Assembly (NCBI GenBank): GCA_003149835.1
Contig: QAMX01000078.1
Location: 1 to 7,941 of the forward strand
Reading direction: 5' to 3'
DNA length: 7,941 nucleotides
Origin: Clostridiales bacterium
GTDB taxonomy: Bacteria > Bacillota > Clostridia > Oscillospirales > QAMX01
Under the pieces are notes generated by a model. The model saw nothing but the letters and a program-made list of their open reading frames with translations. It made no database searches and was not told where the DNA came from. Numbering within the stretch: position 1 is the first letter of the stretch; the number at the start of each line of letters is the position of its first letter. The position numbers were made by a program, and so were the translations under genes. This document shows positions 1,077 through 7,941 of the stretch, piece after piece.

Positions 1077-4000
1077 TTACTCAGTGATATCGTCGGCCGT
1101 GATGATGCCCATCTCCGTGCGCTTTTTGGTCAGCTCAGAGTTGATGTCGTCGATATAATCGAGCAGCGTTTCGCGCGGGTCGGTCATCTTCGTATAGGTC
1201 CGGTTGAAAGCGTTGTCCATGTGCCGCGTGGTGTAGTAACCGCCCGGCACCTCGGGGATTCCCTGCGCCCAGGAGCGCTGCGTCATCAGCAGCTTGTATT
1301 CGTCCATCGACCACGCCTGCTGGTACATGACGTTAATGTTCGCCGACGGAATACGCGCCGCGATACCCATCGTCGCTTCGACTTCGAGGCAGTACCGGGT
1401 CTGCGATTCGTCTGACGTCCACCATTTCAGGAATTCCCATGCGTTCTCCTTGTTGGTGGATTTTTGGAGAATAATACAGCCGTTGCCGCTCGTCGCCACA
1501 GAACGGTCGATGACCGTGTTGCCGTTCTCGTCGGTGCGCTCTACCCCGGGGACAAGCGCAAAGCTCCACAGGCCGCGGATTTCCGGGGCGGTGACGCTCA
1601 GGGCGTTCATCGTCGTGAAGTCCGCAATGCCGATCGGCACCTCACCGGTTCTGAAACGGTTCTGGAAGTCGATCTGCAACTCGATTTTATAGCTGCGGTA
1701 CAGATCGACATAGGCGATAAAGGCTTCGATCGCCGTCGGCGAGTCGAGATTCGTCGCATAGCCGAGCGTCTCGCCTTCGCCGCGGTACACGCTGCCGCCG
1801 CGCTGATAGAGCAGCGTATAGAAGTTGTTGACATTGGCCGGGAAACCGAAGTTCATGTAGTTGTTTTGCAGCTCTGGGATGATGTCGTAGACGTCGGCCC
1901 ATGTCTGCGGGACTTCAAGGCCAAGCTCTTCCATAATGTCTGTTCTGTAAAACATCACTTGGAAGTTCTGCGTTTCCGGCAGCGCATATACGCCGTTCAG
2001 ATACTGATACTGCACAAGCGAGCTGTCAAAGAAGCGCTGGGCTACCTCTTCATAATCGTCAAACTCAGCGAGATCGACAACGGCTCCGCGCATCGCGTAC
2101 TGAACCGGGTTGGTGCCCACGACTTGCAGCGCGACGTCCGGTCCCTTGCCGGCCAGCGTCGCCGGCAGCAGAGCGTTCAGATCGATCAGCTGGAGGTTGA
2201 CGGGAATATCCGGATGCTGGGTCATGAAGCTGTCGTCGATCATCTGCTTCAAGATCTGCGCCTGCTCGCGGCCGCCGCCGACGACCTGCCCGGCGACATT
2301 GCCCGGCGCAAACCAAACGGTAATCGCATCGTCGGAGGCGTTCTCCGCGCCGACGGACGTATAGTCGGTCGTAAACGACGACCAGAACAATTTCAGTTCA
2401 TGGCCGATCCCGGCGAAGAAACCGGCGTTGGCCTTGGGCAGCTCGACATCCGGCGAGGTGATGAGGAAATAGTCGAGCTCCAACGGCTGATAGTTGAGGT
2501 CGAGGATCCACTCAGCGATCGCCGAGACGTCGCTCTTAAACTGGGTAAAGTTCTTGGCGATTGTGTGGTCGCGGCTCGACATCGTATAGAGGCGGTCGGC
2601 CGCGCGTTCAAGCGTCGCCATGTCGGAGTTGCGCTCGCCGGTCAGCTCGAGCATATCGTTCATAATATCCATCAGCTCGTCGGCCTGCTCCTTCATCGTC
2701 ACAAGCTCGTTGGGCATGACTTCTTTGAAGTTATAGTCGCGCTCCTTATCCGGCTCGGTGCCGATGAGCATCAGCAGGCGGCGGTATACCGTCATCAGCT
2801 CGGTAACCGAGCTGTCGAGCCGCCGCGCCAGATCTTCGATAATGCCGAGGTTGACCTGCATCGTCATCGTATACGTCTTTCCCGCTTCAAAATAGAACAG
2901 GAACGGCTCTCCGATTTCCTCATCGCCCAGCGTATAGAAGCGGAAATCGGCATCGTAATAAAAGCCGCAGTTTTTCGCCTCCGCAAACGGGATCTCCCCG
3001 TCAATGCGCAGGCAGCGGCCCGAGGTCATGCTTTTATTGACGCTTTGGCGGCCGCGCATGGAAATACGGTACAGCCCGCTTTCCGGCACGGTAAGCTGCC
3101 AGGAAATCCACTGTCCGGCCGACTCCCACCGTTCGCCGCCGATCACGTTGACCTGCGTATGGTCATAGGTAAACTTGCCGCTGACGCCTGTCGTGCTCAC
3201 CGACGCGCGGCTGTGATACGGATACAGCGAGGAGGCGCTCTTCTGGTAGGTATCCTCCGCCTCGACCTTCACCGTCTGTCCGCTCGTCTCGGTATAGCCG
3301 TTGGCGGCGTATTCAGCCTGAACCTCTGCGTACGACTTCAATTCATCCTGCATGCCCAGACCGATCTCAGCAAGAAGCATCGGCTCTTTGACCGAGATCA
3401 CTTTGATCTCATGCTCGCCCGCTTCGAGGTAGAAGCGGAACGAATCGAAGTAATAGCCGCGGTCGTCGTTCAGGTATTTGGTCCGCCATTCCGGCGCTTC
3501 GACGGTCGTGGGCCGGATCTCATTGCCCGCGGTGTCAAAGACCGTTCCGACTTTTTCCGTATCCTGCCAGATACGGGAGAAAGCCAAATAAGACGCCTCT
3601 ATGAACGGATAATCGCCGTCAATTTGGATCTCGCGTTCAATGTCGGAACCCTTGCCCTCGATCGGGTAGTACTTGAAATAGATCTCGTACATCGCCGATT
3701 CGGGGACCGTCACCTTATAGGTGACATACGCCGCGTCGTACTCAACCAGCTCCATGTTGCTCTCGTTGCCGGTGATCTCGCCGGAATCCGCCTCTTGTTC
3801 CGCCGACATGTCCTTCATCAGCACCGCGTTCTTGACGCCTTCATACTCGTCGAACGTGGTGAGATTCATGTTCGTGTCGACATAATCAGCGGCGGGGACG
3901 ACGATATCCTCTCCATTATAGAGCGGCTTATCGGCGTGCTCGTTTATGTACCAGCTGTAAGAACCCTCTTTGAAATTGCTCGAGGTCGCGGTCTTGTCAA

Positions 4001-4163
4001 CCGCGCCGATCTCCTCCGTCTCGTCTGCGCTGACCGTCAAAGCGCCCGCCATGACGGACATAAGCATGACTACCGCGAGAAGAAGCTCCACGCTGCGCGT
4101 GAGTTTTCTCCTCGTTCCGCCGAAGACTTGCCGGCTGTCGCCGTTTCTGGTAAACCTCCGCAT
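1077..4163 (-). CDS. Large extracellular sugar-binding protein with two N-terminal carbohydrate-binding-like modules
   Basis: This 1028-aa protein is more than twice the length of a usual type 1 solute-binding protein (about 400-450 aa). Residues 1-24 are basic, 25-44 form a hydrophobic signal segment, and a likely cleavage site follows VSA at 46. There is no lipobox cysteine. Two related beta-rich modules follow: module A (about 145-258) and module B (about 340-437). Both carry TVPES, then IDGD/EYPF or IDGEIPF with EA, then F-x-FY-x-EAG. Residues 440-560 are helical, charged and heptad-like. The binding domain runs from about 613 to the end, with the family signature GVYALPETQNFQVMFYR (724-740), PQTWADV (752-758) and WEFLKWW (909-915). 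The ATG follows an AGGGTGG site. The gene heads the transporter operon and presumably captures oligosaccharide outside the membrane. Solute-binding function is well supported; the sugar-binding role of the modules is inferred from their pattern. Confidence 0.9.
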   Translation of the reverse strand: MRRFTRNGDSRQVFGGTRRKLTRSVELLLAVVMLMSVMAGALTVSADETEEIGAVDKTATSSNFKEGSYSWYINEHADKPLYNGEDIVVPAADYVDTNMNLTTFDEYEGVKNAVLMKDMSAEQEADSGEITGNESNMELVEYDAAYVTYKVTVPESAMYEIYFKYYPIEGKGSDIEREIQIDGDYPFIEASYLAFSRIWQDTEKVGTVFDTAGNEIRPTTVEAPEWRTKYLNDDRGYYFDSFRFYLEAGEHEIKVISVKEPMLLAEIGLGMQDELKSYAEVQAEYAANGYTETSGQTVKVEAEDTYQKSASSLYPYHSRASVSTTGVSGKFTYDHTQVNVIGGERWESAGQWISWQLTVPESGLYRISMRGRQSVNKSMTSGRCLRIDGEIPFAEAKNCGFYYDADFRFYTLGDEEIGEPFLFYFEAGKTYTMTMQVNLGIIEDLARRLDSSVTELMTVYRRLLMLIGTEPDKERDYNFKEVMPNELVTMKEQADELMDIMNDMLELTGERNSDMATLERAADRLYTMSSRDHTIAKNFTQFKSDVSAIAEWILDLNYQPLELDYFLITSPDVELPKANAGFFAGIGHELKLFWSSFTTDYTSVGAENASDDAITVWFAPGNVAGQVVGGGREQAQILKQMIDDSFMTQHPDIPVNLQLIDLNALLPATLAGKGPDVALQVVGTNPVQYAMRGAVVDLAEFDDYEEVAQRFFDSSLVQYQYLNGVYALPETQNFQVMFYRTDIMEELGLEVPQTWADVYDIIPELQNNYMNFGFPANVNNFYTLLYQRGGSVYRGEGETLGYATNLDSPTAIEAFIAYVDLYRSYKIELQIDFQNRFRTGEVPIGIADFTTMNALSVTAPEIRGLWSFALVPGVERTDENGNTVIDRSVATSGNGCIILQKSTNKENAWEFLKWWTSDESQTRYCLEVEATMGIAARIPSANINVMYQQAWSMDEYKLLMTQRSWAQGIPEVPGGYYTTRHMDNAFNRTYTKMTDPRETLLDYIDDINSELTKKRTEMGIITADDITE
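2853..3146 (-). other. Carbohydrate-binding-like module B of the solute-binding protein
   Basis: Residues about 340-437, the second copy of the internal duplication. It contains WISWQLTVPES, then LRIDGEIPFAEA, then FLFYFEAGKTYTMTM. It is preceded by VKVEAED (298-304), a start typical of CBM6/35-like modules, so the true module may begin near residue 297. Aromatic residues (W346, W352, W355, Y402, Y403) could form a sugar-stacking face; that is inference. Confidence 0.55.
3390..3731 (-). other. Carbohydrate-binding-like module A of the solute-binding protein
   Basis: Residues about 145-258. It aligns by eye with module B: YVTYKVTVPES, then IQIDGDYPFIEA, then FRFYLEAGEHEIKV. The strand pattern and the EAG-x-H/Y-x-I/M ending resemble CBM6/CBM35-type beta-sandwich modules, but I cannot assign a family. 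It carries an insertion (about residues 200-240) that module B lacks at the same place. Confidence 0.55.
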
Positions 4164-4218
4164 GCTTCCACCCTTTCCTTACAGGATAACTTTTGCTAAG
4201 ACTGTTTCCGATCTCTGC

Positions 4219-4315
4219 CGAAATGCGGTTTCGAAAAAACGTTTGTGTATTTTGCCCTACGGCAAAAAAGGACAAATCAAAGAATTACACCTCGAAATCG
4301 GGCGTAAATCTTTGA
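4219..4315 (-). promoter_or_regulatory. Structured 5' leader of the transporter operon (three hairpins)
   Basis: Between the promoter and the ATG three inverted repeats follow each other. The largest has 12-nt arms TCAAAGAATTAC (4277-4288) and GTAAATCTTTGA (4304-4315) with one mismatch and a 15-nt loop. The next has TTTTGCC (4250-4256) and GGCAAAA (4261-4267) with a 4-nt loop, and the third has CGAAA (4219-4223) and TTTCG (4229-4233). On the minus-strand RNA a U-rich stretch (TTTGTCCTTTTTT) follows the first hairpin, giving an attenuator-like look. I recognise no known riboswitch family. The structures are visible; a regulatory role is inference. Confidence 0.35.
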
Positions 4316-4390
4316 AAAGGCATTTATTTCATCACAATAACCGCATGATTCGACATTCCATCGTAAAATAGCCCAATAGACTCTACCTAT

Positions 4391-4419
4391 ATGATATTTT
4401 ATTTGTGGTAATTTGTCAA
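4391..4419 (-). promoter_or_regulatory. Sigma-A promoter of the sugar transporter operon
   Basis: Read on the minus strand, a perfect -35 box TTGACA (4414-4419) and a -10 box TATCAT (4391-4396, one mismatch to TATAAT) are separated by exactly 17 bp. Transcription would start near 4384, giving a leader of about 220 nt before the ATG at 4163. The spacer carries one copy of a 10-bp inverted repeat, a candidate operator. Confidence 0.8.
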
Positions 4420-4484
4420 GAGCCGCAACACTCTTGCAGATATTAAACTTTTATGAAACGTGTTCATATTGTCACTTCTGCCAC
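4399..4484 (-). other. Candidate pair of tiny upstream ORFs with a strong ribosome binding site
   Basis: On the minus strand a perfect AGGAGG (4491-4496) is followed after 6 nt by GTG (4482-4484), which opens a 6-codon ORF (MAEVTI) ending in TGA at 4464-4466. That stop overlaps an ATG (4465-4467) as ATGA, the arrangement of coupled genes; the second ORF runs 22 codons (begins MNTFHKSLISARVLRLL) and stops at 4399-4401. A -10-like TATACT (4505-4510) lies just upstream but has no clear -35 box. The second ORF runs through the -35 box of the operon promoter, which argues for chance or for a decayed gene start. Low confidence. Confidence 0.2.
4452..4468. promoter_or_regulatory. 17-bp palindrome, candidate operator upstream of the transporter promoter
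   Basis: TATGAA and TTCATA form perfect 6-bp arms around the central ACGTG. It lies about 33 bp upstream of the -35 box, a position that suits an activator, or a second site for a repressor. It resembles operators of LacI-type sugar regulators in general form but does not fit the CcpA cre consensus spacing. Confidence 0.3.
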
Positions 4485-4602
4485 AAATAACCTCCTATAT
4501 TTTTAGTATATTGGGTAAGATTGGATGATATGTTTTTTGCTGCATAAACATTTGTCGCGCCGGTTTTCTCTCGCCCGCCCTTCCTTTCCTGTCCCATACT
4601 GC

Positions 4603-4635
4603 AAAAAAGCGGCGTTTCAACACGCCGCTTTTTTT
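4603..4635 (-). terminator. Rho-independent terminator after the acyl-CoA synthetase gene
   Basis: A 7-bp GC-rich stem, GCGGCGT (4609-4615) and ACGCCGC (4622-4628), has a 6-nt loop and is flanked by six A and seven T on the plus strand. On the minus strand the stem is followed by six U, so it ends the synthetase transcript about 110 nt after its stop codon. The symmetric A and T runs would also let it work in the other direction, but no plus-strand gene leads into it. Confidence 0.9.
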
Positions 4636-4742: not shown

Positions 4743-6401
4743 TCATGTGCGGTCGTTTTTGCGGATCTCCGCCCGTTTGATTTTTCCGCTGAATGTCTTG
4801 GGAATTTCCTCCACAAACTCGATAATCCGCGGGTATTTATAAGGCGCTGTCGTCCGTTTGACGTGATCCTGCAACTCTTTTTTCAGCGCGTCGGAGGGAA
4901 CCGCGCCTTTGACCAGCACGACCGTCGCTTTGACGATCTGCCCGCGCTCGTCGTCGGGCACGGCCGTGATCGCAGCCTCCATAACGCTCGGATGCTCCAA
5001 CAGCGCGCTTTCGACCTCAAACGGCCCGATCCGATAGCCCGAGCTTTTGATCACGTCGTCGGCGCGGCCGACAAACCACAGATACCCGTCCTCGTCCATC
5101 CACGCCATGTCGCCGGTGTGGTACCAGCCGCCGTACATAATCTCCGCGGTTTTCGCTTCGTCCCGGTAGTAGCCGCAGGTCAGCCCGGCCGGCCGGCCGT
5201 GCGAAATGTCGATACAGATCTCGCCTTCGTCGCCCGGTTCGACCTCCGTGCCGTCGTCGCCGATCAGCTTGATGTTGAAATGCGGGCTCGGCTTGCCCGT
5301 TGAGCCCGGCTTGGCCGGAATCCACGGGAACGTCGCAATCAGAACCGCCGTCTCCGACTGTCCAAACCCCTCCCGGAGCTCCAAGCCCGTGAGCTGCTTC
5401 CATTTATTGTAAACCTCTGCGTTCAGCGGCTCGCCGGCGATGCAGCAGTGGCGCAGGCTGGAAAGATCGTAGTGCTCGATATCGGCTTTGATCAGGAAGC
5501 GGAATACCGTCGGCGGCGCGCAGAAAACCGTCACCTTATGCTGCTCGATGACATGCAGCAGGTCCGTGGGGTTAAACTTGCTGTCGTAATCGTAGACAAA
5601 GATCGCCGCCTCGCAGATCCATTGGCCGTAGATCTTTCCCCACGAGGTCTTGGCCCAGCCCGTGTCGGCGTGGGTAAAGTGCAGGTCGCCGGGATGCAGA
5701 TCCTGCCAGAACTTCGCGGTCAGAATATGGCCGAGCGGATAGCGGCAATCGTGGACGACCATCTTCGGCAGCCCCGTGGTGCCGGAGGTGAAGTACATCA
5801 GCAGCAGGTCGTCGTTGCAGGCGGCGTCTTTGCCGGTCGGGCGCTGAAAATCGTCCGGCGCCGCGTCGAGCGCCGCGTCAAAGTCGATATAGCCCTTATG
5901 CGCCTCTCCGACGACGAACTTGCAGCGCAGCGACGGCGCTTTTTGTTGCGCGTCGTCGATCGCCGCCAGCAGCCGCGGATCGTCGATGGCGACGACCGCC
6001 GCCACAGACGCGGCGGTAAAGCGGTATTCGAGATCCTTCTCCATCAGCTGATGGGTCGCCGGCAGCAGCACCGCGCCGATCTTGTGCAGCGCCAGCGCGC
6101 AGATCCAGTACTGGTATTTGCTGCGCAGCAGCGTCATAACGACGTCGCCCTTCCGAATGCCGTAAGACACAAGCATCGACGCCGCTTTGTCGGACAGCCG
6201 CTTCATATCGGCAAACGTAAAGGTCGCCTCGTTGCCCTTGTCGTCGCACCAGACGAGCGCGCGCGCCTCCGGTTTTGTGCGCGCCAGCTCGTCTACGACG
6301 TCGTAGGCAAAATTGAAATTTTCGGGGACATGGATTTGAAATCTGTCGCGGAAATCCTCATAAGAAGAAAATTCCGTCTCGCAAAACTTAGATATCAGCA
6401 T
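4743..6401 (-). CDS. Acyl-CoA synthetase (AMP-forming), acetyl/medium-chain/benzoate-CoA ligase type
   Basis: This 552-aa cytoplasmic enzyme activates a carboxylic acid with ATP to an acyl-adenylate and then transfers it to CoA. The ANL-family motifs are complete: the P-loop TSGTTGLPK (205-213), GEP (323-325), GFGQSET (345-351), YHTGD (427-431), GRADDVIKSSGYRIGP (445-460) and the C-terminal SGKIKR with the adenylation lysine K540. The stretch DTGWAKTSWGKIYGQW (246-261) followed by CAPPTVFRFLI (294-304) resembles the medium-chain and benzoate-CoA ligase branch more than classical Acs, which is longer (about 650 aa). Substrate choice cannot be read directly. The ATG follows GAGG at a 6-nt spacing. 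It is the second gene after a valine-type T-box, 116 nt behind the XRE/cupin gene, with no convincing promoter of its own. A branched short-chain acid such as isobutyrate is the substrate I infer from that context; acetate, propionate or an aryl acid remain possible. Confidence 0.93.
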   Translation of the reverse strand: MLISKFCETEFSSYEDFRDRFQIHVPENFNFAYDVVDELARTKPEARALVWCDDKGNEATFTFADMKRLSDKAASMLVSYGIRKGDVVMTLLRSKYQYWICALALHKIGAVLLPATHQLMEKDLEYRFTAASVAAVVAIDDPRLLAAIDDAQQKAPSLRCKFVVGEAHKGYIDFDAALDAAPDDFQRPTGKDAACNDDLLLMYFTSGTTGLPKMVVHDCRYPLGHILTAKFWQDLHPGDLHFTHADTGWAKTSWGKIYGQWICEAAIFVYDYDSKFNPTDLLHVIEQHKVTVFCAPPTVFRFLIKADIEHYDLSSLRHCCIAGEPLNAEVYNKWKQLTGLELREGFGQSETAVLIATFPWIPAKPGSTGKPSPHFNIKLIGDDGTEVEPGDEGEICIDISHGRPAGLTCGYYRDEAKTAEIMYGGWYHTGDMAWMDEDGYLWFVGRADDVIKSSGYRIGPFEVESALLEHPSVMEAAITAVPDDERGQIVKATVVLVKGAVPSDALKKELQDHVKRTTAPYKYPRIIEFVEEIPKTFSGKIKRAEIRKNDRT

Positions 6402-6428
6402 ATTCAGCCTCGCCTATATAGAGTCGTT

Positions 6429-6496
6429 CCGTTCCCTTTCGGAAACGCTTTTTTGAATATTGTGCCGCCCGCCGCCGCGCCGCTGTCACAGCGGCG
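6429..6496 (-). other. Intergenic hairpins between the regulator and synthetase genes
   Basis: Two perfect hairpins lie in the 116-nt gap. CGCCGCTG (6478-6485) and CAGCGGCG (6489-6496) form an 8-bp stem with a 3-nt loop. On the minus-strand RNA, CGTTTCC and GGGAACG (6430-6447) form a 7-bp stem (one G-U pair) closed by a GAAA tetraloop. Neither is followed by a U run on the minus strand, so they are unlikely to terminate this operon. They could protect or separate the two messages (inference). Confidence 0.4.
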
Positions 6497-6517
6497 GTTC
6501 AGCCGGACAAGCGGATT

Positions 6518-7075
6518 TTATTTGATGACAATCACGATCAGTTTTACCGGCCGGTTGTTCAGCGCGCGCATCGCGTGCGGGTATTTGGAATCAAAGTAAA
6601 CGGAGTCGCCCTCGCGGATCGTCAGCTCGTGGCCGCCGATATAGAGGCGCATCTCGCCTTCGAGACAGTAGTGAAATTCGTGACCGCCGTGCGTATTCAT
6701 GTGCAGCTCGGCGCTCTCATCCTTGGGCTCAATCGTCACCAGCAGCGGCTCGACGCGCCGCTCCGCAAACCCGTGCGCGAGCGCGGCGTAATTGTAGCCG
6801 GCCGTCCGCTCGACGCCGATGCCGCGCCCCTTGCGGACCACGGAGTACATTTTCAGCTTCGCGCGGTCGCCCGTCAGCAGTTCCGTCACCGAAATACCAA
6901 AAATGTCGGCCGCCTCGCAGAGCACGCTGACCGGGATATCGACGTTTCCGGTCTCCATCTCAGCGTACTCCTGGGCCGAAATCGTCAGGCGCGCGCCCAG
7001 CTCTTCTACCGTCATGCCTGAAATTTCACGCATCGCCCTCAGCCGCACGGCAATTTCTCTGACATGTTCAGACAC
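6518..7075 (-). CDS. XRE-family transcriptional regulator with C-terminal cupin domain
   Basis: This 185-aa protein has an N-terminal helix-turn-helix (about residues 5-66: REIAVRLRAMREISGMTVEELG, split by the turn, then SAQEYAEMETG) and a C-terminal cupin barrel (about 105-183). Cupin signatures are H129-x2-H132-E133-F, CLEGE (137-141), REGDSVYFD (154-162) and PH at 166-167, so a metal or small-molecule pocket is likely. I chose the GTG at 7073-7075: AAGGGGGA lies about 10 nt upstream and the HTH begins at once. An open frame extends to an ATG at 7249, but it would translate the T-box and its terminator, so it is rejected. Such proteins often control the metabolic gene beside them; here that would be the acyl-CoA synthetase, and perhaps its own promoter. 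The effector is unknown; an acyl-CoA or the free acid is a guess. Confidence 0.9.
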   Translation of the reverse strand: MSEHVREIAVRLRAMREISGMTVEELGARLTISAQEYAEMETGNVDIPVSVLCEAADIFGISVTELLTGDRAKLKMYSVVRKGRGIGVERTAGYNYAALAHGFAERRVEPLLVTIEPKDESAELHMNTHGGHEFHYCLEGEMRLYIGGHELTIREGDSVYFDSKYPHAMRALNNRPVKLIVIVIK

Positions 7076-7083
7076 AAAAATCA

Positions 7084-7092
7084 ATCCCCCTT
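7084..7092 (-). promoter_or_regulatory. Ribosome binding site deciding the GTG start of the XRE/cupin gene
   Basis: Minus-strand AAGGGGGAT lies about 10 nt before GTG at 7075 and downstream of the T-box terminator. An in-frame TTG (7082-7084) is too close to it to be used. This fixes the start after the riboswitch and not inside it. Confidence 0.7.
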
Positions 7093-7162
7093 CAAAATCC
7101 TGCGCTCCGCTTTTTTCGGCGCGCAAATCGTTTTCGACCAACCGCAGGCAGATCCCGGAAAA

Positions 7163-7200
7163 GAAAAAAACGCCCGTCCACGATTGCTCGGGACGGGCGT
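7163..7200 (-). terminator. T-box-controlled intrinsic terminator
   Basis: A perfect 10-bp stem, ACGCCCGTCC on the minus strand at 7200-7191 with GGACGGGCGT at 7179-7170, has an 11-nt loop and is followed by a run of seven U. Its 5' arm overlaps the 3' arm of the antiterminator, so the two folds exclude each other, the hallmark of a transcriptional T-box. Confidence 0.93.
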
Positions 7201-7441
7201 TCAAAAACTTACCCGCGGTACCACCCAAATTTGCGGCCATGCCGCACACTTCACAAGGTCAAAAAACCTCTGCTCAATAACGGGAGCCCCCGTCCCGCGC
7301 TTACTCCCATGCTTTCAGCGCGAAATGCTCGCAAGCGACCTTCACCGTCTCTCCCAATAGGGCGGCTCACACCCGGCCAAACGCCGACCGCACCTTCTCT
7401 GAATTGTTCCCGACAGCTACTCCTCTTGTTCACAGCATCCA
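7163..7441 (-). promoter_or_regulatory. T-box riboswitch, valine specifier (GUC)
   Basis: Minus-strand RNA. The T-box core GGGTGGTACCGCGGG (7226-7212) matches the family consensus, and the four bases UGGU (7223-7220) would pair with a tRNA end ACCA. Stem I is complete: basal GCT/AGC (7436-7434 with 7329-7327), a GTGAA/CG internal loop, CAAG/CTTG, then a specifier loop with AGTA on the 5' side (7421-7418) and GAA-G-GTC-G on the 3' side (7343-7336), closed by GCTGTC/GACGGT. Counting as in the glyQS T-box (GAA, one base, codon, purine), the codon is GTC at 7339-7337, valine. Frames shifted by one base give Gly or Ser, whose tRNAs usually lack A73. A TGCGGC/GCCGCA hairpin (7246-7232) fits Stem III. 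Antiterminator arms GGG and GCGGG pair with CCCGT and CCC at 7197-7190, which overlap the terminator. Uncharged tRNA-Val should allow read-through into the regulator and synthetase genes. Confidence 0.93.
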
Positions 7442-7450
7442 ATATGATTC

Positions 7451-7470
7451 ATATACTTTTTATAGTATAT
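7451..7470. promoter_or_regulatory. Inverted repeat over the -10 box and start site, candidate operator
   Basis: ATATACT (7451-7457) and AGTATAT (7464-7470) form perfect 7-bp arms around a 6-nt AT-rich centre. It covers the -10 box and the predicted start of transcription. The XRE/cupin protein encoded by this operon is the natural candidate to bind here, giving autoregulation on top of the T-box. AT-rich palindromes over -10 boxes can arise by chance. Confidence 0.4.
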
Positions 7471-7492
7471 CATCCTCACGCCCCGTTGTCAA
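7464..7492 (-). promoter_or_regulatory. Sigma-A promoter of the T-box operon
   Basis: On the minus strand TTGACA (7487-7492) and TATACT (7464-7469) are separated by 17 bp. This is a near-perfect consensus promoter with a start near 7457, about 20 nt before Stem I of the T-box. Such a strong promoter fits control by termination downstream. The -35 box lies about 40 nt after the stop codon of the GH4 gene. Confidence 0.9.
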
Positions 7493-7532
7493 GAGCAAGA
7501 GAAAACTTTTTTTCGCACCTCCGCGGATTCAT

Positions 7533-7941
7533 TCAGATACATTTGCGGATATAGGGTCTGTTGATTTCAAACAGCTCGTCGACGATGCGCTCCGCCGCAT
7601 AGCTGCTCTGAATCACCGGATCGCAGAGCAGCGCCTGCAACGCAAGCTCCCGGCTGCCATAGGCGGCCGCGCGGACGGAAAGGCGCTGTGCGGAAACCTG
7701 CATGTTCAGCAGACCCACTACGCCGTCGGGCAGCCCGCGCACCGCGATCTTGTGCACGCCGCCGCCGTCTACGAGGATCGGAGACTCTACCGCCACGTCC
7801 GCGGGCAGCTGCGAAATCGTATCGTCGTTATAGACGATGGCGGAGGGGATATATTTTTGTTCATTAAAGAAAATTCCGGTAATGACCTCGACGGCCTGCT
7901 CGCCGGACGGGACGAGCCAGTCGCGCGCGTCGCGCCTGCCG
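7533..7941 (-). CDS. Glycoside hydrolase family 4 enzyme (C-terminal part)
   Basis: The reading frame is open from the right edge (first full codon at 7940) to the TGA at 7533-7535, giving about 135 aa of the C-terminus. The stretch begins with PSGEQAVEVITGIFFNE, continues with PADVAVESPILVDGGGVHK, and ends with ALLCDPVIQSSYAAERIVDE and LFEINRPYI. This order (E-x-A-hydrophobic stretch, then VE-P-x-xVD-x-G, then QAL-x-DP, then DELFE-N-x-x-Y) is the C-terminal pattern of GH4 alpha-glucosidases, alpha-galactosidases and alpha-galacturonidases. These cytoplasmic enzymes use NAD+ and a divalent metal. The NAD-binding and metal-binding residues lie upstream, outside the window, so substrate specificity cannot be judged. 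A GTG at 7794-7796 is internal and not a start. The gene could process a sugar imported by the transporter encoded downstream, but the two are separated by the T-box operon. Confidence 0.85.
   Translation of the reverse strand, partial: GRRDARDWLVPSGEQAVEVITGIFFNEQKYIPSAIVYNDDTISQLPADVAVESPILVDGGGVHKIAVRGLPDGVVGLLNMQVSAQRLSVRAAAYGSRELALQALLCDPVIQSSYAAERIVDELFEINRPYIRKCI

Follow-up and report, generated by a model that had tools for sequence, protein, structure and literature searches.

Why should a T-box that appears to read valine stand before a putative transcription factor and an acid-activating enzyme? This question is raised by the minus strand of the window (the whole analysed stretch of 7,941 nucleotides), where the first-pass annotation had marked positions 6518-7492 as a T-box unit controlling an XRE/cupin regulator and an acyl-CoA synthetase. 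That span is bounded by the promoter on one side and the end of the XRE/cupin gene on the other, and the synthetase (6401-4743) lies outside it. The parts of the leader were located as follows.

7492-7464, minus strand: sigma-70-like promoter, TTGACA-17-TATACT, with 11 of 12 consensus bases.
7442-7186, minus strand: T-box leader covering the complete RF00230 model (1-219), 101.8 bits against a gathering cut-off of 93, E 3.1e-22 (Rfam).
7428-7425 / 7335-7332, minus strand: lower helix of Stem I, CAAG/CUUG, from the Rfam alignment and the sequence.
7424-7418, minus strand: 5′ side of the Stem I specifier loop, AGGAGUA, from the sequence and the Rfam alignment.
7343-7336, minus strand: 3′ side of the specifier loop, GAAGGUCG, 8 nt, from the Rfam alignment.
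7339-7337, minus strand: predicted valine specifier GUC, in the Rfam specifier columns.
7190-7226, minus strand: antiterminator, with the T-box bulge UGGU at 7223-7220.
About 7202-7168, minus strand: intrinsic terminator, a hairpin with a U run behind it (-27 kcal/mol, z -7.2).

The covariance check with RF00230 that had been proposed gave a match over the gathering cut-off, and the earlier description of a complete T-box with promoter, antiterminator and terminator was borne out. The AGUA/GAA specifier loop of Stem I (AGGAGUA/GAAGGUCG) lies between two helices, GCUGUC/GACGGU and CAAG/CUUG in the Rfam alignment, and an antiterminator with a UGGN bulge competes with the terminator. A consensus scan of positions 6400-7600 found two promoter-like sites against a mean of 0.3 in shuffled sequences, the second one on the plus strand. 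The scan listed no other minus-strand promoter-like sites and no minus-strand terminator-like sites in 6400-7600, a weak negative because the same scan missed the strong terminator at 7202-7168. By energy alone the antiterminator stretch, which overlaps the terminator, was unremarkable (-13.3 kcal/mol, z -0.2). Its helix was paired in 94.3% of the cells over 14 T-boxes, in a structure drawn from the same alignment.

The priority rule of TBDB (PMC7778990) favours bases 2-4 of the bulge, counted from its 3′ end. Applied to the window loop, this rule gave GUC, the same triplet as the Rfam columns (+0 frame), in which the position after GUC is a G. The closest relative among the matches listed, L001, had a specifier loop identical to that of the window, again with GUC, and differed in the lower helix by swapped pairs (CUUG/CAAG vs CAAG/CUUG in the window). 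The L001 leader scored 74.9 bits (E 1.8e-14), below the Rfam cut-off; at the gathering threshold Rfam reported no T-box in ten loci including L001, whose T-box is seen only in E-value mode. The window specifier is predicted by rule to read GUC, valine, in agreement with the first-pass annotation. Its gene assignments, too, were supported by Pfam matches for the two genes that follow.

7075-6518, minus strand: XRE/cupin regulator gene, 185 aa, GTG start; Cupin_2 64.5 bits, HTH_31 37.3 bits.
6401-4743, minus strand: acyl-CoA synthetase (AMP-forming), 552 aa; AMP-binding 221.2 bits, AMP-binding_C 77.3 bits.

The GTG at 7075 is the most likely start of the regulator gene, as it aligns with the ATG of L001. 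Between the window and L001, identity was 74% for the XRE/cupin protein and 65% for the synthetase. Elsewhere in the window, positions 1077-4163 (minus strand) encode a 1028-aa protein with a C-terminal solute-binding domain and a long N-terminal part that matches Golvesin_C only weakly, and this gene is followed by an ABC permease gene (97-1062).

The best solved relative of the synthetase was PDB 3etc (732 bits, residues 2-551), a close homologue over the full length. 3etc is here taken as MacsMa, an acyl-CoA synthetase from M. acetivorans; in keeping with this, the published YHTGD 431-435 and Trp259 can both be placed on the 3etc chain with the same offset, 23. MacsMa prefers 2-methylbutyrate, and Trp259 is critical in its substrate binding; the title of the 3etc structure paper, found in the reference list of the same article, names an alternate pocket for small branched substrates (both from PMC10455477). 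The methanosarcinal relatives of the synthetase likewise have an upstream XRE/cupin ORF, whereas the archaeal loci among the best 80 described below were without a detected T-box. The best NCBIfam model was MbcS (NF047394), with 456.4 bits under a cut-off of 850, and judged by this likeness the window synthetase may work like MbcS, though it is not filed as MbcS. According to the accessible text of PMC10026030, MbcS of S. aureus selects 2-methylbutyrate and isobutyrate, with butyrate and isovalerate as poor substrates. This selectivity fits Ile and Val, not Leu, and isobutyrate is the likely substrate of the window synthetase. MbcS differs in serving branched fatty acids, and the word T-box is absent from PMC10026030.

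The distribution of the gene pair and of its T-box was followed in the best 80 loci with synthetase relatives, from bacteria and archaea. An XRE/cupin ORF lay upstream of the synthetase in 75 of the 80, and a T-box was present in two, L001 and L016. The L016 T-box (AUC; 94.7 bits with Rfam, E 0.012 in the first scan) is situated 3′ of the XRE gene and directly 5′ of the synthetase. The XRE/cupin and synthetase pair is old; its T-box is not. In the family to which the genome of L001 belongs, 135 of 300 genomes had an XRE/cupin match at E <= 1e-30. The best of these matches made up 88 distinct regions (30 loci and 60 more, with 2 repeats; lower-ranked matches are outside the set), with a same-strand synthetase as a strong match in 83, a weak one in 2 and none in 3, and with a T-box upstream in 31.

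The family regions, second copies within them, the window and L016 gave 42 T-boxes in total. The first-pass annotation had suggested that related genomes be surveyed for T-boxes before such pairs, and here they were, all with Ile or Val specifiers where readable: 28 AUC (Ile), 9 GUA and 4 GUC (Val) among 41, and none other. The specifiers were read by a constrained script and checked against the Rfam columns, for part of the set, and against printed sequences. Those of L148_3202 (GUA), L145_3462 (GUA) and L016 were taken from the printed sequence or the Rfam columns, and that of L232_8903, added later, from both; L177, at a contig end, gave no reading, and L163 and L165 are near-copies. A synthetase was in reach of 41 of the 42 T-boxes, the exception (L181_372) lying at a contig end. 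An XRE/cupin gene or domain came first after the T-box in 41 of 42, and regulator and synthetase formed a single reading frame in 29 of 41. TBDB holds 23,535 T-boxes with downstream targets, according to the part of PMC7778990 at hand. No description of T-box control of these synthetases was found in the open-licence papers searched, which agrees with the earlier impression that the pair was undescribed as a T-box class, but the pair is much wider as a T-box target than the single locus on which that impression was formed.

Two T-boxes were left out of the class, L176_4159 (CUC) because it lies on the opposite strand and L082 because it stands before another kind of gene. The latter (L244:2543-2788 and 2874-4631, genome G004) reads UUC (Phe, by eye) and precedes phenylacetate-CoA ligase-like and ACT-domain-like genes, both by eye; it is perhaps an aromatic counterpart, from phenylacetate to phenylalanine. 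At L243:1672-1927 and 1969-3636 (genome G002; T-box L091), a CUC specifier (Leu, by eye) stands before an AMP-binding synthetase-like ORF (by eye), perhaps a counterpart from isovalerate to leucine. The GUA T-box at L225:3059-3572 has an enlarged middle part, with about 282 additional nt separating Stem I from the antiterminator. At L234:8059-8168 (plus strand) a divergent second T-box, CUC (Leu), was seen back to back with the Ile T-box, and precedes an ORF that is LeuA-like by eye.

Twelve loci, mostly tandem ones, were extended downstream. In ten of them (L225-L234, of which L227 ends at a contig end) the synthetase was followed by a P-loop NTPase gene and then by a VorB gene; the two unfused Ile types, L235 and L236, did not continue into NTPase and VorB. 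The order of genes was T-box(Ile)-fusion, T-box(Val)-fusion, NTPase, VorB, beta and gamma, in some loci with a branched-chain aminotransferase added, the first fusion gene of the tandem loci being under an Ile T-box and the second under a Val T-box. In L225-L232 the XRE/cupin regulator and the synthetase were fused into proteins of roughly 755-795 aa; the copies stood in tandem, and every one had a T-box to itself. Both fusion genes of L226 encode, by Pfam, a single chain with HTH, cupin and AMP-binding domains. With NCBIfam models, the L226 VorB scored 539.7 bits (cut-off 399) and the L231 branched-chain aminotransferase 391.7 bits (cut-off 307); L226 shows the start of such an aminotransferase. 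The NTPase between the second synthetase and VorB (L226:5659-6330 and equivalents) is CbiA/ParA-like. Beside the pair, VorB was also detected in L002 (545.8 bits) and L009 (521.9 bits; cut-off 399), with beta- and gamma-type subunits, and L011 had a beta-subunit gene and a gamma-like ORF; L066 had oxidoreductase-type ORFs by eye. Among the ORFs of the window no oxidoreductase lies beside the synthetase, and none was seen beside that of L001.

The genomes of the family were compared for the same genes. VorB lay within 8 kb of the T-box gene, by coordinates, in 15 of the 31 genomes with a T-box. The p values of this comparison are just indicative, because the genomes are mutually related drafts whose completeness is not established: a VorB match was found in 29 of the 31 (27 over the cut-off) vs 6 of 20 listed family genomes without an XRE hit (5 over the cut-off; Fisher p 2.6e-6), and an ilvC match in 8 of 31 vs 13 of 20 (Fisher p 0.009). 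A further 145 genomes without an XRE hit are outside the comparison set, and the ilvC model matched all 14 control genomes. Since relatives have the synthetase beside VorB, and in some cases an aminotransferase, under Ile/Val T-boxes, an alternative route to Ile/Val most likely begins with this acid activation. The earlier placement of acid activation outside amino-acid biosynthesis is, by the same context, probably wrong. On our reading, the T-boxes of this class govern the formation of Ile/Val from 2-methylbutyrate/isobutyrate via reductive carboxylation, a route already familiar from the rumen.

In the genome of L001 (G001), an ilvC match was present, and a second T-box (C162; 114.6 bits, specifier GUC by eye) precedes ilvB-ilvH-ilvC-ilvD-like ORFs, all but ilvC assigned by eye. 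No VorB match was obtained in G001, a fragmented 1.3 Mb MAG that does encode two other POR_N proteins. Its 7 genus mates had no XRE match at E 1e-30 and no VorB over the cut-off. In the lineage of the window, the pair clearly carries a valine T-box, whereas the step that would use isobutyryl-CoA is a putative one.

A synthetase tree of 86 rows was made by a quick method; of the 80 loci it includes those up to L050, together with the T-box set. The enzymes under T-boxes occupied three places: a large Ile/Val clade, the window with L001 (support 99), and L016. At the minimum, the T-box state changes three times on this tree, and the well-supported branches force at least two changes. Because of these three places, T-box control of this enzyme is likely to have more than one origin, with a branched-chain specifier in every case. 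The window and L001 grouped with L002, L009 and L011 at a support of 92, under the starred level, and L001 and L011 had long end branches. These three nearest synthetases in the tree all adjoin oxidoreductase genes.

At residue 250 the window has an Ala (GWAKTSW), as opposed to the aligned Gly of 3etc (GWGKCVW), four residues ahead of Trp259. With two short synthetases (L174 and L186) excluded from the count and from the tree, all 11 Val-type T-box enzymes had Ala here, vs Gly in 23, Ala in 2 and Met in 1 of the 26 Ile-type enzymes. L225_3462, which reads GUA and stands outside the 11, also has Ala. The association with specifier type (Fisher 9e-8) comprises, where branches are supported, just 3 independent pairs. 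Of 47 enzymes without a T-box, 46 also had Ala. That residue 250 by itself would set the substrate is no more than suggestive; with Ala as the common state also outside the T-box enzymes and so few independent pairs, the Ala250 of the window agrees with a valine role but does not prove it.

Based on these observations, we consider it likely that the window T-box passes transcription only at uncharged tRNA-Val, so that isobutyrate would be activated as a precursor of valine. By analogy with the T-box family, uncharged tRNA-Val(GAC) would make two contacts, pairing with the GUC of Stem I and, by its free NCCA end, with the bulge UGGU, and would in this way stabilise the antiterminator at the expense of the terminator at 7202-7168. 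The synthetase would convert scavenged isobutyrate into isobutyryl-CoA, a 2-oxoacid:ferredoxin oxidoreductase would carboxylate this to 2-oxoisovalerate, and a branched-chain aminotransferase would form valine. The genes for the predicted oxidoreductase and aminotransferase steps adjoin the synthetase in relatives, not in the window. The XRE/cupin protein would probably provide a second layer of control, linked to the acid or to the CoA ester formed from it.

For the class as a whole, we favour with some reserve a wider reading: it would run Ile/Val synthesis from scavenged branched volatile fatty acids, with an own T-box for each synthetase copy (AUC where the substrate is 2-methylbutyrate, GUA/GUC where it is isobutyrate) and a regulator that is often fused. 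In many Clostridia belonging to a single large family, the operon would have taken the place of the acetohydroxyacid (ilvC) pathway, and the window would be an independently evolved valine-only instance.

It is unlikely that the synthetase instead feeds membrane lipids, with isobutyryl-CoA priming FabH for branched fatty acids and the valine T-box reporting the loss of a valine-derived primer. The S. aureus enzyme behind the best NCBIfam model has that role, by the text of PMC10026030 that was at hand, and the missing VorB match in G001 points the same way; yet the window synthetase falls short of the MbcS cut-off, the T-box genes of relatives lead into a VorB-type oxidoreductase and in some into a branched-chain aminotransferase, which are enzymes of amino-acid synthesis, and 23 of the 31 T-box genomes are without an ilvC match. 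The XRE/cupin regulator might likewise be the main output, valine starvation raising a factor that controls other genes while the synthetase rides along. Its first place after nearly every T-box agrees with this, but the L016 T-box follows the XRE gene and directly precedes the synthetase, and the frequent joining of regulator and enzyme in one frame, confirmed with Pfam for the two L226 genes, also speaks against it; we regard it as very improbable. Scarcely credible is a glycine specifier (GGU), which the 8-nt loop permits in frame -1 and which belongs to the alternative frames considered by the TBDB authors, or a decayed leader without function, for the +0 frame gives GUC in both the window and L001 and Ile or Val in the remaining 39 readable class members, a matching tRNA was found for just 8.6% of T-boxes with 3′-U specifiers (both TBDB statements from the available part of PMC7778990), and the window leader covers the whole RF00230 model.

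The preferred reading, T-box control of valine synthesis from isobutyrate, places the locus close to known systems. With class I transcriptional T-boxes (RF00230), such as those of the ilv type, it shares all sequence elements, the +0 specifier frame and the occurrence of branched-chain specifiers on branched-chain amino-acid genes; it differs in its target, an XRE/cupin regulator and an acid-activating synthetase, not a tRNA synthetase, a transporter or ilvBHCD. In the rumen, isobutyrate is a precursor of Val and 2-methylbutyrate of Ile (PMC7356843, in the part available here, citing Allison and Peel 1971 and Robinson and Allison). The precursors predicted here are the same, but the rumen evidence is physiological, whereas here genes and gene order are assigned, together with a tRNA-based control that is predicted.

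The locus and its relatives supply likely genes for the old rumen observation that Val and Ile are made from branched acids, and the T-box specifier gives each synthetase a predicted substrate. The old physiology is thereby turned into testable pairs of gene, enzyme and switch, and the XRE/cupin and synthetase pair, which is found from Clostridia to methanogens, gains a likely function.
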